Positions 57,704-63,413 of a stretch of DNA of 64,000 nt are shown in pieces. The translations under genes were made by a program, and so were the position numbers. The notes under the pieces are model-generated. The model ran no database searches. It was given only the letters and a program-made list of their open reading frames with translations, and was not told where the DNA came from. Source of the DNA: Actinomycetota bacterium (GTDB lineage Bacteria; Actinomycetota; Humimicrobiia; Humimicrobiales; Humimicrobiaceae); NCBI GenBank assembly GCA_028698215.1, contig JAQVDY010000001.1:62001-126000 (forward strand). Reading direction: 5' to 3'. Position 1 is the first letter of the stretch; each line of letters begins with the position of its first letter.

Positions 57704-57745
57704 ATTTTTTAATCCTTAAGCAATCTGTTTTCAATCAAGTTTAAA

Positions 57746-57774
57746 ATTATACATTCTAATGCTGCTAATATCAA
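57746..57774 (-). promoter_or_regulatory. rpmH promoter
   Basis: On the minus strand: TTGATA (57774-57769), 17-bp spacer, TATAAT (57751-57746). Same hexamers and spacing as the divergent promoter at 58084. Confidence 0.7.
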
Positions 57775-58083
57775 GCATCATCGGCTCCTCCGCAACCTTC
57801 AAACACTTGTTCTAGCATAAGAGCCTGATGAAAAGCTTTTTTCACATCTGTTTATAATATAGTGGAGTTTTTCAAAATCAAGTAAAATTTTTCGAAAAGT
57901 TTTCAACACCTGTGGAAAATAATGTTAATAACTCAAAAAAGGCCACTGTATGGGCTTCCAAGAAATCATAATTTCTGGTTGGTGTATGGTTTTAATGCTG
58001 AATTTTTCCTATATCTCTGTTAGTATTTTTAAAAAAAATATTGTTAATAACTCTACCAGTTGAAAAGATGTTGAAAAGATTGA

Positions 58084-58112
58084 TTGATAAAAACATCCTA
58101 AATTTATATAAT
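58084..58112 (+). promoter_or_regulatory. Promoter of the GHKL-ATPase/dnaA operon
   Basis: TTGATA (58084-58089), 17-bp spacer, TATAAT (58107-58112). Transcription would start near 58119, 28 nt before ATG 58147; no Shine-Dalgarno is seen. Confidence 0.7.
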
Positions 58113-58146
58113 TCTGTTTGTTATTAGCAACATAATCCTATTTTTT

Positions 58147-58941
58147 ATGTCAGACGAATCAGTTAACCCTAATAAAGAACCTGAGGTATTTATACCGGTC
58201 AGAATAGCTATATATGATAATTTGCGAAGCATACCCCGGGTAGTAGAGCTTAATTTTAACAGCATTAAAGATTTTATTAATGAGACCTCGCAAAAAACCT
58301 ATACCCTTTCCCATGAAGTAGGGGGCCAGATTCCGTACACCATTATTAGGGAAATTATTGAAAATTTAATACATGCAGAATTTTGTGAAATTATTATAAC
58401 CATAACCGATGCCGGAAACCATATTATAGTATCCGACCAGGGCCCGGGGCTGGAAGATAAGGAGAAAGCTTTTTTGCCGGGATTTACTTCTGCTACCCAG
58501 AAAATGAAAGAGTATATTAGGGGAGTAGGCTCTGGGTTGCCGATAGTAAAAGAAACCATTACCTTCTCGGGGGGGTCTATAGATATAACCGATAACCTAA
58601 AAAAGGGTACAGTAGTTTCTTTAAAGATAGACAACCGGCCCCAGCAACAGAACCAGGAAGCAGAACCCCTGCCGGCCTCTGAAGATAAAAGCCAAAAGGG
58701 TAAGGAATTTGAAAATATAGAGTTAAGCATAAGGCAGAAGCAAATATTATCCCTTATATTGGAGATGGATGAGGCCGGGCCTTCCAAGATTGCCAAAGAA
58801 CTAAACTTCAGTCTTTCCACTTCTTATAGGGAATTAATAGGTTTGGAAAACCAAAAGCTTCTTACCTCCAGCAGCTCTGGAAAAAGAAGCTTATCTCCCC
58901 GCGGGGTTAAATACCTTGAATATTATTCAAATAGTTTTTAA
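58147..58941 (+). CDS. GHKL ATPase fused to a winged helix, adjacent to dnaA
   Basis: 264 aa. A histidine-kinase-type ATP-binding domain (about 60-165): N-box REIIENLIHAEF, G1 DQGPGLED, F-box-like FLPGFTSAT, G2 GVGSGLPIVKETI and a final GTVVSLKI. After a Gln/Glu-rich linker (about 168-190) comes a MarR-like helix-turn-helix (about 195-260, LSIRQKQILSLILEMDEAGPSKIAKELNFS). No phospho-His dimerisation domain or sensor. 12 bp before dnaA with no promoter between, so co-transcribed. Possibly an ATP-sensing regulator of initiation; unproven. Confidence 0.75.
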   Translation: MSDESVNPNKEPEVFIPVRIAIYDNLRSIPRVVELNFNSIKDFINETSQKTYTLSHEVGGQIPYTIIREIIENLIHAEFCEIIITITDAGNHIIVSDQGPGLEDKEKAFLPGFTSATQKMKEYIRGVGSGLPIVKETITFSGGSIDITDNLKKGTVVSLKIDNRPQQQNQEAEPLPASEDKSQKGKEFENIELSIRQKQILSLILEMDEAGPSKIAKELNFSLSTSYRELIGLENQKLLTSSSSGKRSLSPRGVKYLEYYSNSF

Positions 58942-58953
58942 TATAGGCATATT

Positions 58954-60303
58954 ATGTTAGATATTAATGATTCTTGGAAATTGGTTTTAGAAGACATTAA
59001 GGGCATTATAAATATGCCCACTTTTAAAACCTGGTTTGAAAACATTTATCCGGTATCTTTTAAAAAAAACTGTTTAACCATATCGGTTAACAGCCATTTT
59101 GCCAAGGAGTGGCTGGAAACCAGGTATGTAGAAATTCTTTCTAATTCAATTAAGAAAAATATTAACAAAGATTGTGTATTTAAAATAATAGTATCTCCGG
59201 GAGAAGAGCTGGTTTACTCTGATTCTGATTTAATGCCGCCAAACAAGCCCAAACAAAAAAAGACTAAGGCCGTCACCTCCAGGTTTAACCATAAATATAC
59301 TTTTGATACTTTTGTAATCGGCAGTGGAAACAGGTTCTCCCATGCAGCTGCCCAGGCAGTTAGCGAAAACCCTGGCAAGGCTTATAACCCTTTGTTTATA
59401 TACGGAGGGGTGGGCTTGGGAAAAACCCACCTGCTCCATGCTATTGGCCAATATATTATACAGCTCTATCCTGACCTTACCGTTACTTATGTTTCAGCTG
59501 AAAAATTTTTAAATGATTTCATTAACGCTTTAAGGGATAAGACAGTGCTTACTTTTAAAGAGCATTACCGCAACACTGATGTTCTGCTGGTAGATGATAT
59601 TCAGTTTTTAGAAGAAAAGGAAGCCAGCCAGGAGGAGTTCTTTCATACCTTTAATGCCTTGCACGATACCAACCGCCAAATCGTTTTGTCCAGCGATAGG
59701 AAACCTAAAGATATTTCCACCCTGGAAGAAAGATTAAGATCCAGGTTTGAATGGGGTTTGGTAACCGATATCCAGCCTCCGGATTTTGAAACCCGTTTTG
59801 CTATTTTAAGAAAATATTCCGAAAGGGAAAAAATCGTAGTTTCTGACGACATACTAAGCCTGATTGCCAGCAAAATATCTTCCAATATCAGGGAGCTGGA
59901 AGGAGCTCTTACCAGGGTGGTAGCATACGCTTCCCTGACCAAATCCAAGCCCGATTTAGAAGCTGCCAAGAATGTTTTAAAAGACATACTTCCGGACAAT
60001 ATAAGCCAAAAGATAACCATACAACAAATTATTAAAGAAGTATCAAATCATTTCTCTATTCCAATTAACACCCTTACCGGTTCAAAAAGAAGCAAGTTTG
60101 TGTCCCAGGCCAGGCAGCTGGCTATGTATCTGTCCCGTGAGCTTACCAGCAATTCTTTGCCCAAGATAGGTAACGCTTTTGGAAACCGTGACCATGCCAC
60201 TGTTATTTATGCTATCAGCAAAATATCTGACCTTATGAACAAAGACGAATCTGTATATAAACATATACAGCAGATCACCAATAATATTAAAAACAAACCA
60301 TAA
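58954..60303 (+). CDS. dnaA: Chromosomal replication initiator DnaA
   Basis: 449 aa, normal length. Domain I at the N-terminus; AAA+ motifs YGGVGLGKTHLLHAIG and VLLVDDIQFLEEKEASQEEFFHTFN; the domain IV signature FGNRDHATVIYAISKI. It opens the origin by binding DnaA boxes, several of which follow directly. The spacer from the preceding ATPase gene is 12 bp. Confidence 0.97.
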   Translation: MLDINDSWKLVLEDIKGIINMPTFKTWFENIYPVSFKKNCLTISVNSHFAKEWLETRYVEILSNSIKKNINKDCVFKIIVSPGEELVYSDSDLMPPNKPKQKKTKAVTSRFNHKYTFDTFVIGSGNRFSHAAAQAVSENPGKAYNPLFIYGGVGLGKTHLLHAIGQYIIQLYPDLTVTYVSAEKFLNDFINALRDKTVLTFKEHYRNTDVLLVDDIQFLEEKEASQEEFFHTFNALHDTNRQIVLSSDRKPKDISTLEERLRSRFEWGLVTDIQPPDFETRFAILRKYSEREKIVVSDDILSLIASKISSNIRELEGALTRVVAYASLTKSKPDLEAAKNVLKDILPDNISQKITIQQIIKEVSNHFSIPINTLTGSKRSKFVSQARQLAMYLSRELTSNSLPKIGNAFGNRDHATVIYAISKISDLMNKDESVYKHIQQITNNIKNKP

Positions 60304-60582
60304 TAGCTGGTGTTGATAACCTGTGCATAACTGGCTTTTTTTATCCACAACCTTTTTAAATATGGTGGATAACTTACCTTCTTTTTTTTTAAGTTTAAAA
60401 CTCTGCTTTTTATCCACAGCTTTTAAAAATTTTTCCCACAGCCTCCTACCAGCTGCTGCCTTTAAAAAAGGCAGTTACCAACAGTTTGAACAGCACCTAT
60501 AATTACTATTAGTTATTTAAATAATTAAGTATATATAATAGAATGGTTAATAAGTTAACCATTTACTTAAAAGAGGTTAAAA
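60304..60582. other. Probable replication origin (oriC) between dnaA and dnaN
   Basis: Three perfect TTATNCACA DnaA boxes: 60322-60330 (reverse), 60341-60349 and 60410-60418. Near-matches at 60364-60372 (reverse) and 60432-60440. A very AT-rich block at about 60497-60541 would serve for unwinding, and a hairpin at 60456-60474 follows the box cluster. Also holds the dnaN -10 (TATAAT, 60534-60539) and its AAGAGG Shine-Dalgarno. Gene orientations diverge near here, as at origins. Confidence 0.85.
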
Positions 60583-61692
60583 ATGAAAATACAAACCACC
60601 AGAACTGATCTTCTAAACAGTATTATGTTTGCCAGCAGGGTAATTTCTTCTAAAAACACCAACTACATCTTAAGCGGTTTGATGATGGAAGCAGACCGGG
60701 AGTTAAGTGTTTACAGTACAGATTTGGAAACCAATATAAAAACCAGCATCAAGGCTAATATTCTTGAAAAGGGAAAATTAGTTGTTCCTTCCCGGATAAT
60801 ATTAAACATATTAAAAAACTTTCCTGAATCCAAAATCGAACTTGAATTCCAACCGGATACCAACCAATTGAAGATAACCTGCCAAAAAGCAGCTTTTAAC
60901 CTCAACACCTTTCCCTTAGAAGAATTTCCCCAGTTTCCCCAAATAAAAAAGGAAAACTCTTTTTATATAGATATGAAAAATTTTAAAAAAATTGTTAATA
61001 AAACCCAAAGATCTATCTCTAATGACGAGGGCAGGGTAATACTGACCGGTGTATTATGTGAAATCAAGGATGATGTTTTCAGTATGGTATCCACTGACAG
61101 CTACCGTCTTTCGTTTGTGGAACAAAAACTAAAAGACCTAAACCAGCAAATTTCAGTAGTTATCCCTGGAAAAGTTTTAGAAAATATTGCCAAGAGTGAA
61201 ACCAATGACGGGAAACTGGAAGTAAATATCGAAGCCAGCCAGATAAGCTTCGGCATAATGGATAAGAATGGTTTTAAGGCCACTATCGTCTCTAGGCTGC
61301 TCTCAGGAAAGTTCCCTGATTACAAGCAGCTAATCCCTAAGAATGTAAAACACAATATAGTGGTAGACCGTGAAAAATTACTGGAAGTGGTAAAAAGAAT
61401 TTCCTCCATATCCCAGGACAATATACCCATAAGCCTGGAGCTGGCAGAAGGCAATATGAAAGTATTTATGGATATAAAGGAAGTGGGCAGCTCCAGCGAA
61501 GAGTTTAAAGTGCCTTATGGGGAAGAAAAAATTGAGATAGCTTTTAATCCCCAGTTTTTAATAGACGGCATTAACATGATCGAAGGAAAAAATATTATAC
61601 TGGGAATAGAAGAATCGTTAAAACCGGTTCTCTTAAAACAGGAACAAGACCAAAGCCTTTTCTATTTACTTATGCCCATACGAATATCTTAA
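60583..61692 (+). CDS. dnaN: DNA polymerase III beta sliding clamp
   Basis: 369 aa, three clamp domains. Start MKIQTTRTDLLNSIMFASRVIS and end FYLLMPIRIS are typical, with VVPSRIILNIL, STDSYRLSFVE and IEIAFNPQFLIDGI inside. The usual recF and gyrB do not follow; a DUF2520 gene does. Confidence 0.96.
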   Translation: MKIQTTRTDLLNSIMFASRVISSKNTNYILSGLMMEADRELSVYSTDLETNIKTSIKANILEKGKLVVPSRIILNILKNFPESKIELEFQPDTNQLKITCQKAAFNLNTFPLEEFPQFPQIKKENSFYIDMKNFKKIVNKTQRSISNDEGRVILTGVLCEIKDDVFSMVSTDSYRLSFVEQKLKDLNQQISVVIPGKVLENIAKSETNDGKLEVNIEASQISFGIMDKNGFKATIVSRLLSGKFPDYKQLIPKNVKHNIVVDREKLLEVVKRISSISQDNIPISLELAEGNMKVFMDIKEVGSSSEEFKVPYGEEKIEIAFNPQFLIDGINMIEGKNIILGIEESLKPVLLKQEQDQSLFYLLMPIRIS

Positions 61693-61705: not shown

Positions 61706-62635
61706 ATGGCCAGTCTAAATATTTCTATAATCGGTGCAGGCAGGGTGGGTTCCACCATGGCCTGTTTGCTAAAAGGCGGACCAAAAAGTAAAATCAAGGT
61801 AACCGCAGTATCCAGCAGGACGCATAATTCCATTGACCGGCTTAAGGCTATCATGGGTAATGACCAGGGACAGATATGCTTTACCCTGGATAATGTGGAA
61901 GCGGCCCGCAGGGGTAATTGTATATTAATCGCTACCCCCGATGATCAGGTAAAGAAGGTTTGCAGCCAGATATTTGATAAGATTAAACTGCAAAAAGAAA
62001 AATATGTTTTTTACTTCAGCGGGTCCAAACCCCTGGAGGTAGTTGAACCCGCCCGTAAAGCGGGGGCTTTTACAGGCTGCATGCATCCTATAAAATCATT
62101 TGCCTCCCCATCACAAGCGGCAAAAACCATGGCAGGCACAATATTTGGTTTAACTTTTACGGAGGCGGAAGCGGGAAGAGTATTAAAGGTATTGGTAGAA
62201 AAACTGCAGGGCAATTATATGGAAGTAAAAGACAGTAAAAAAACCCTGTACCATGCTGCCTGCTGTGTAGCTTCCAATTACCTGGTAGCATTATTGGACT
62301 ATTCCTTATCCCTGGTAACCAGCATAGGTATTGAACCCGGCCTGGCAACCAAAGCCCTGTTATCCCTTTCTGCCGGCACTTTGGATAATATTGAAAAGCT
62401 GGGCACTAAAAAAGCCTTAACCGGGCCCATTGCCAGGGGGGATACGGGCACCATAGAAGAGCATTTGGAACAGATTGGCCAATGCGGATGTCAAAAAGAC
62501 ATTTACCTGGTGATGGGAAAGAAATCAGCAGACATTGCCTATGGCAATAAATGGCTGTCAGGAGAAAAATATAAATTATTAAATTCTATACTGGAGGATA
62601 GCCCGAACCATGAACTCAAAAAAGATAACCATTAG
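61706..62635 (+). CDS. Rossmann-fold/DUF2520 oxidoreductase-like protein
   Basis: 309 aa. NAD(P) site ISIIGAGRVGSTMACLL, then ILIATPDDQV, FYFSGSKPLEVVEPARKAGAFTGCMHPIKSFASP and a helical DUF2520 half (about 165-300, LYHAACCVASNYLVALLDYS). The same family lies next to panC in Mycobacterium. Placed directly before panB (26-bp overlap), it may supply ketopantoate reduction in place of PanE. Activity is not shown. Confidence 0.85.
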   Translation: MASLNISIIGAGRVGSTMACLLKGGPKSKIKVTAVSSRTHNSIDRLKAIMGNDQGQICFTLDNVEAARRGNCILIATPDDQVKKVCSQIFDKIKLQKEKYVFYFSGSKPLEVVEPARKAGAFTGCMHPIKSFASPSQAAKTMAGTIFGLTFTEAEAGRVLKVLVEKLQGNYMEVKDSKKTLYHAACCVASNYLVALLDYSLSLVTSIGIEPGLATKALLSLSAGTLDNIEKLGTKKALTGPIARGDTGTIEEHLEQIGQCGCQKDIYLVMGKKSADIAYGNKWLSGEKYKLLNSILEDSPNHELKKDNH

Positions 62636-63413
62636 CACCTTACTGGAAATGAAAAAAAAGGGAGAAAAGATAACCATGCTAACCGCCTATGATTATCTGA
62701 TGGCTTCCCAAATGGATGAATGCGGAATAGACCTCATCCTGGTAGGGGACTCAGTAGGCAATGTGTTGCTGGGATATCCAAATTCAATCCCGGTTACCAT
62801 GGAAGAAATGATTCATCACTGTAAAGCAGCTAGAAGGGGAACCACTAATGCCTTGTTGATAGGAGACCTGCCATTTATGTCCTATCAGGTGAGCACAGAG
62901 GGTGCGGTAAAAAACGCAGGAAGGCTGGTAAAGGAAGCAGGAGTTGAAGCCGTAAAACTGGAAGGGGGACAAGAGGCAGTAGAAGCTATAGAAAAAATTG
63001 TGGCCGCCGGAATACCGGTAATGGGGCACCTGGGTCTTACTCCCCAATCCATAAACAAATTGGGAGGATATGGGGTTAGAGGAGAAGGGGAGGAGGAAGC
63101 TAAGCAGATTATAGCTGATGCCAAGGCCTTGGAGACCGCAGGTATATTTGCCCTGGTATTAGAAAAAGTTCCTGCCCGCCTAGCTAAAGAAATAACCGGT
63201 ATGCTGTCTGTTCCCACTATTGGCATAGGGGCGGGAGTAGATTGTGACGGACAGGTGCTGGTAACCCATGATATGCTCGGCTTTTTTGAAAAGTTTAAGC
63301 CTAAATTCGCTAAAAGATATATGGACCTGGCTGGCCAGATGAAAAACTGTTACCGTCTTTATATAGAAGAAGTCAAACAAGAAAAGTTTCCAGGCCAGGA
63401 GCATAGCTATTAG
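62610..63413 (+). CDS. panB: 3-methyl-2-oxobutanoate hydroxymethyltransferase
   Basis: 267 aa. Transfers a one-carbon unit to 2-oxoisovalerate to form ketopantoate. Blocks: MLTAYDYLMA, ILVGDSVGNVLLGY, VKLEGGQE, MGHLGLTPQSIN and PTIGIGAGVDCDGQVLVTHDMLG. It begins within the DUF2520 gene and is followed 2 bp later by panC. Confidence 0.96.
   Translation: MNSKKITISTLLEMKKKGEKITMLTAYDYLMASQMDECGIDLILVGDSVGNVLLGYPNSIPVTMEEMIHHCKAARRGTTNALLIGDLPFMSYQVSTEGAVKNAGRLVKEAGVEAVKLEGGQEAVEAIEKIVAAGIPVMGHLGLTPQSINKLGGYGVRGEGEEEAKQIIADAKALETAGIFALVLEKVPARLAKEITGMLSVPTIGIGAGVDCDGQVLVTHDMLGFFEKFKPKFAKRYMDLAGQMKNCYRLYIEEVKQEKFPGQEHSY

Follow-up and report, generated by a model that had tools for sequence, protein, structure and literature searches.

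The window analysed here is a 64,000-nucleotide stretch of the Actinomycetota contig JAQVDY010000001.1. Between its rpmH and dnaA genes there is a reading frame whose product has a GHKL ATPase domain in its N-terminal part and a winged helix at its C-terminus. The rnpA-rpmH side and the dnaA side are served by identical, divergent promoters. The features of the region, in window coordinates, are:

57746–57774, minus strand: divergent promoter TTGATA-17-TATAAT for rpmH
57900–57931, plus strand: DnaA-box triad TTTTCAACA-2-TGTGGAAAA-3-TGTTAATAA, kept across the phylum in carriers and non-carriers of the gene
58042–58050, minus strand: fourth DnaA-like box (TTATTAACA), 10 bp before the tandem repeat
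58061–58078, plus strand: tandem repeat TGAAAAG-N4-TGAAAAG, candidate operator, just upstream of the −35
58084–58112, plus strand: promoter TTGATA-17-TATAAT on the dnaA side, the best of the region (11/12)
58147–58941, plus strand: GHKL ATPase-winged helix gene (264 aa), an ORF with an ATG start
58192–58317, plus strand: conserved N-terminal beta hairpin and helix (residues 16–57), before the N box
58351–58377, plus strand: N box EIIENLIHA (residues 69–77), with E69, N73 and H76 invariant (43/43)
58435–58449, plus strand: G1 box DQGPG (residues 97–101)
58516–58542, plus strand: ATP-lid/G2 box IRGVGSGLP (residues 124–132)
58717–58929, plus strand: MarR/TrmB-like winged helix (residues 191–261), from an AF2 model, PDB matches and Pfam matches in relatives
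58954–60303, plus strand: dnaA, 12 bp after the GHKL-winged helix gene and second in the putative operon
60304–60582, plus strand: dnaA-dnaN intergenic region, with DnaA boxes at 60311 (minus), 60341 (plus) and 60410 (plus)

An earlier note, made from the letters alone, had placed a gene between rpmH and dnaA, 12 bp short of dnaA and behind the promoter listed above. The frame exists and reads as claimed, the spacing follows from its stop and the dnaA start at 58954, and the promoter, besides scoring best in the region, is conserved in all four species of the genus.

Within the genus the protein is 72–81% identical, and dN/dS is about 0.06 (two computable pairs; dS is near saturation, so the value is approximate). 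Its relatives across the phylum fall to 32–36% identity while their motifs stay invariant. Together, these three features show that the frame is not a chance one. The genome has one true copy, the next match being kinase-like (E=2e-4). None of the models in Pfam and NCBIfam is specific to the full-length protein, and literature searches returned no description of a GHKL-winged helix protein next to dnaA. The parts are known; no description of their combination, or of so strict a tie to dnaA, turned up in the searchable literature.

ATPase and winged-helix domains

Residues 64–163 match the Pfam family HATPase_c (48.3 bits, cut-off 26.4; E=1.5e-12), as do all 30 relatives searched. No member of a diverse set of 43 varies at E69, N73, H76, D97, G99, G101, G126, G128, G130 or G154, the last of which lies in the G3 box, GT, at residues 154–155. 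Tyr23, in the N-terminal hairpin and helix region, is present in 41 of the 43. This invariance, with the low within-genus dN/dS, makes an active ATP site a well supported prediction. Since E69, the catalytic Glu, is kept alongside the Mg-binding N73, ATP hydrolysis or phosphate transfer by the domain is probable. In AF2 models the GHKL half is of low confidence (pLDDT 61–65), and it has no significant fold match in the PDB.

The winged helix is modelled better (pLDDT about 80–87), with its recognition helix at residues 223–235. Its best PDB matches are all to the MarR family: 2fxa (E=6.5e-4), ZitR and MepR. Among the 30 relatives the Pfam match is to TrmB in 15 and to MarR in eight; the window protein itself reaches TrmB at E=0.024, below the cut-off. 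The domain and its recognition helix are conserved among relatives. [At loci L053, L059 and similar ones, which are probably from Coriobacteriia, the linker is long and Pro/Gln-rich and the C-terminal winged helix has diverged, with the protein still dnaA-linked.] The reading of ATP-site boxes (N, G1 and G2), of a MarR-like DNA-binding domain and of the absence of a kinase dimer domain and sensor, all made in the earlier note, agrees with these matches and with the search for kinase domains that follows.

One might take the protein for a degenerate two-component histidine kinase, given the best family matches of its ATPase domain, which are to histidine kinases; the best sequence match for the second half of the domain is the CA domain of sensor kinases (Thermotoga HK853, 2c2a/3dge). 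However, neither a HisKA/DHp nor a sensor domain was matched in the window protein, nor HisKA in the 30 relatives, and the phospho-acceptor His and an adjacent response regulator are absent. The SHE motif (SHEVGGQIP) was considered as an H box and rejected as not conserved: H56, 13 residues ahead of the N-box Glu, gives way to Q, R or K in 9 of 30. Histidine kinases have Asn at the position corresponding to the invariant Glu69, which replaces the first N-box Asn here, and the E-x3-N spacing is the one seen in catalytic-Glu GHKL proteins (MutL, SpoIIAB, PDK), not that of histidine kinases. A kinase of this kind is therefore extremely improbable.

With the ATPases of the catalytic-Glu group (MutL, GyrB, Hsp90, SpoIIAB and PDK/BCKDK) the protein shares the E-x3-N box, DxGxG, G2 and G3. 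It differs from them in its variable linker and C-terminal winged helix, the lack of a transducer, an N-box His instead of Asp and its being locked to dnaA. A DNA clamp driven by ATP, like MutL, GyrB or MORC, and shaping origin DNA, would fit the N box, whose form E-x3-N-x2-[DH]-A has the MutL/Hsp90 spacing, and the MutL structures among the profile matches. Against such a clamp, which is very unlikely, is the absence of the second, transducer domain of MutL, GyrB and Hsp90 with its switch lysine: past residue 165, the ATPase domain gives way to the variable linker and then to the winged helix. The fold of these C-terminal 70 residues is common to MarR/TrmB regulators (ScoC/Hpr 2fxa, ZitR, MepR), whose regulatory input is a small-ligand or metal site where the window protein has a GHKL ATP site.

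Distribution and linkage to dnaA

A profile search of 397 sampled Actinomycetota genomes (threshold E≤1e-10) found relatives in 161. Many deep-branching Actinomycetota carry the gene, and many others in the phylum lack it. Its carriers belong to about 25 of at least 75 sampled families, a count that leaves out three further families with weak matches only, and most carrier genomes have a single match at the threshold. Within the organism's own class and in the first distant families, a good match always lies immediately before dnaA if the contig extends that far. Outside the class, 59 genomes were tested. In 56 the gene immediately precedes dnaA on the same strand (52 within a contig and four across the junction of a circular chromosome), and in the other three the gene and dnaA are on different contigs of fragmented assemblies; in none of the 59 was the gene found to lie away from dnaA. 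Occurrence at unrelated loci in relatives, which would have spoken against the earlier proposal of a tie to dnaA, was thus looked for and not encountered: the 56 contiguous cases and the own-class loci all have the gene conserved at dnaA. Such strict linkage, with the gene never elsewhere in the genomes checked, is suggestive of an as yet unstudied regulator acting on dnaA or the origin.

Absences from the own family and class are mostly due to a missing contig, since most of the genomes concerned also lack dnaA. Eight genomes without a match (from the own family, the own class and another positive family) have no dnaA in the assembly, and one further has only a dnaA fragment. The earlier statement that usually no gene lies at this position holds in 20 sampled genomes without the gene: upstream of dnaA none of them has a GHKL frame, and most have a recognisable yidD and/or rnpA there.

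A scan of one genome per species (84,980 species), which reaches close relatives only, gave 19 loci, of which 18 are labelled Actinomycetota, Actinobacteria, Actinomycetes or Humimicrobium/Hydromicrobium and one merely ‘bacterium’. A mobile or phage origin was rejected as no relative was found in viral contigs; the matches in plasmids cover under half of the query, and the annotated ones are a histidine kinase, PAS proteins and an unnamed ATP-binding protein. [One locus, L063:5985–6998, has a homologue fused to the start of an unrelated GHKL protein, which is probably a misassembly.]

Distances between GHKL proteins correlate with those between DnaA proteins in a mirror-tree comparison (r=0.64 over 43 loci). 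In a 17-locus subset the correlation is 0.48 with DnaA and 0.50 with YidD, so the comparison is uninformative for a specific link to DnaA.

The gene could owe its position to operon structure only, as a passenger of the rnpA-rpmH-dnaA region with an unrelated task, and the synteny of this region is indeed generally conserved. Yet operons break at such divergence and zero exceptions to the dnaA linkage were found; moreover, of the two sides of the divergent promoters, the gene is on that of dnaA and not that of rpmH. A passenger is quite improbable.

The main rival to regulation of transcription is direct action on DnaA or the orisome. The protein would contact them as an ATPase or a SpoIIAB-like Ser/Thr kinase, with its winged helix as a tether at the origin. 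Phylum-wide co-inheritance with dnaA is consistent with this, as is the conservation of E69 as in GHKL proteins of the SpoIIAB/MutL type. DnaA domain I also differs between class Actinomycetes and other classes, the domain I dimer of that class not extending to the whole phylum (PMC13270200); that the class boundary of the dimer may coincide with the presence or absence of the GHKL gene is a lead. However, gene linkage can come from co-regulation alone, and the test for SpoIIAB/RsbW gave 23 bits with the SpoIIAB model TIGR01925 against a cut-off of 135, with HATPase_c_2 matched in only one of 30 members. Direct contact is judged rather unlikely.

DnaA boxes, promoter and tandem repeat

The triad of DnaA boxes about 245 bp upstream of the gene has a fixed geometry (plus, 2 bp, minus, 3 bp, minus; 0/+11/+23). 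In the window it has a single match where none is expected. At 50 of the 54 loci that have the gene, and at 13 of the 17 that lack it, the triad scores at least 23/27; it exceeds all 40 shuffles made for each locus at 54/54 and 15/17, respectively. As it occurs in most genomes without the GHKL gene, the triad belongs to DnaA and, by the same reasoning, the DnaA boxes at 57704–58146 are not sites of the GHKL protein. The 20-bp palindrome TTTTCAACA-NN-TGTKGAAAA was considered as an operator of the winged helix and rejected on this ground, the same box geometry being present in 13 of 17 genomes without the gene, and further because its box spelling appears to track the recognition helix of DnaA. 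The fourth box is found about 100 bp before the gene at many loci.

[Within DnaA domain IV (60115–60230) the family signature is DHATV, DHSTV or DHPTV in place of DHTTV. The deviating boxes TTTTCAACA, TTATTAACA and TTTTATACA occur with these signatures, and DHTTV mostly with TTWTCCACA, an apparent co-evolution of initiator and box. Separately, the sequence at 57798–57812, between rpmH and the dnaA operon, is TTCAAACACTTGTTC (reverse GAACAAGTGTTTGAA) and resembles a Gram-positive LexA box; it is present in 4/4 species of the genus and 6/23 upstream regions of the family.]

DnaA boxes largely explain 57704–58146, and the only candidate operator there is the promoter-proximal tandem repeat, which has the family form TGRAAAG-N4-TGAAAAG and is positioned between the last DnaA box and the −35. 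The exact repeat, looked for in 24 whole genomes of the family, has 13 matches there, ten of them at the dnaA-operon promoter, in ten genomes of three genera (the reversed control pattern gave six matches in all). In nine of these ten genomes the promoter copy is the sole match genome-wide, and so the repeat suits a regulator dedicated to the operon. The exact repeat is absent from several genera in the 24-genome scan and is not evident in other families. It may be the operator of the winged helix, though DnaA or, with direct repeats of 11 bp, an OmpR-type response regulator would also fit as its ligand.

A putative regulator of the dnaA operon

On these grounds we lean towards the protein being an ATP-gated DNA-binding regulator dedicated to the dnaA operon. 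Spacing and promoter suggest that its gene is co-transcribed with dnaA from the conserved promoter. The GHKL domain would bind ATP, and probably hydrolyse it or transfer its phosphate, with binding shifting the dimer state as is inferred from the superfamily. The winged helix may then bind DNA, the likeliest site being the tandem repeat that lies after the last DnaA box and before the −35. Bound there, it would set transcription of its own gene and of dnaA, in concert with DnaA at the neighbouring box. Speaking against this reading are the diverged winged helix and long linker in the L053 and L059 branches, the patchy occurrence of the exact repeat within the family and the low confidence of the modelled GHKL half.

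Further action on the nearby origin is possible. The dnaA-dnaN intergenic region is a probable part of oriC, and the contig's cumulative GC skew is lowest at window position 61019, within dnaN, which makes the locus probably the origin. More tentatively, the gene may represent an undescribed control of replication start, in which a dnaA-operon GHKL switch with a DNA-binding domain would couple an ATP or partner signal to both dnaA transcription and origin firing.

DiaA, HobA, SirA, YabA, Soj and Hda are likewise clade-specific and linked to replication start (a link that for the GHKL-winged helix protein comes from genomics). PrpR of M. tuberculosis is a regulator of the dnaA promoter (PMC3982210). 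All of these have domain contents unrelated to that of the window protein, and none is known as a GHKL protein with its gene in the dnaA operon. How the start of replication is tied to physiology in bacteria beyond E. coli and Bacillus is largely an open matter. For many Actinobacteria no DnaA regulator is known, a point that PMC5720831 makes for mycobacteria and many other bacteria. The role of the GHKL-winged helix protein is directly testable, as the approximately 25 sampled families presumably include culturable carriers such as Rubrobacter xylanophilus, Eggerthella lenta and Cryptobacterium curtum.

Downstream of dnaN, at 61706–63413, recF-gyrB is replaced by the gene of a DUF2520-type protein and panB, and many relatives have this order too.
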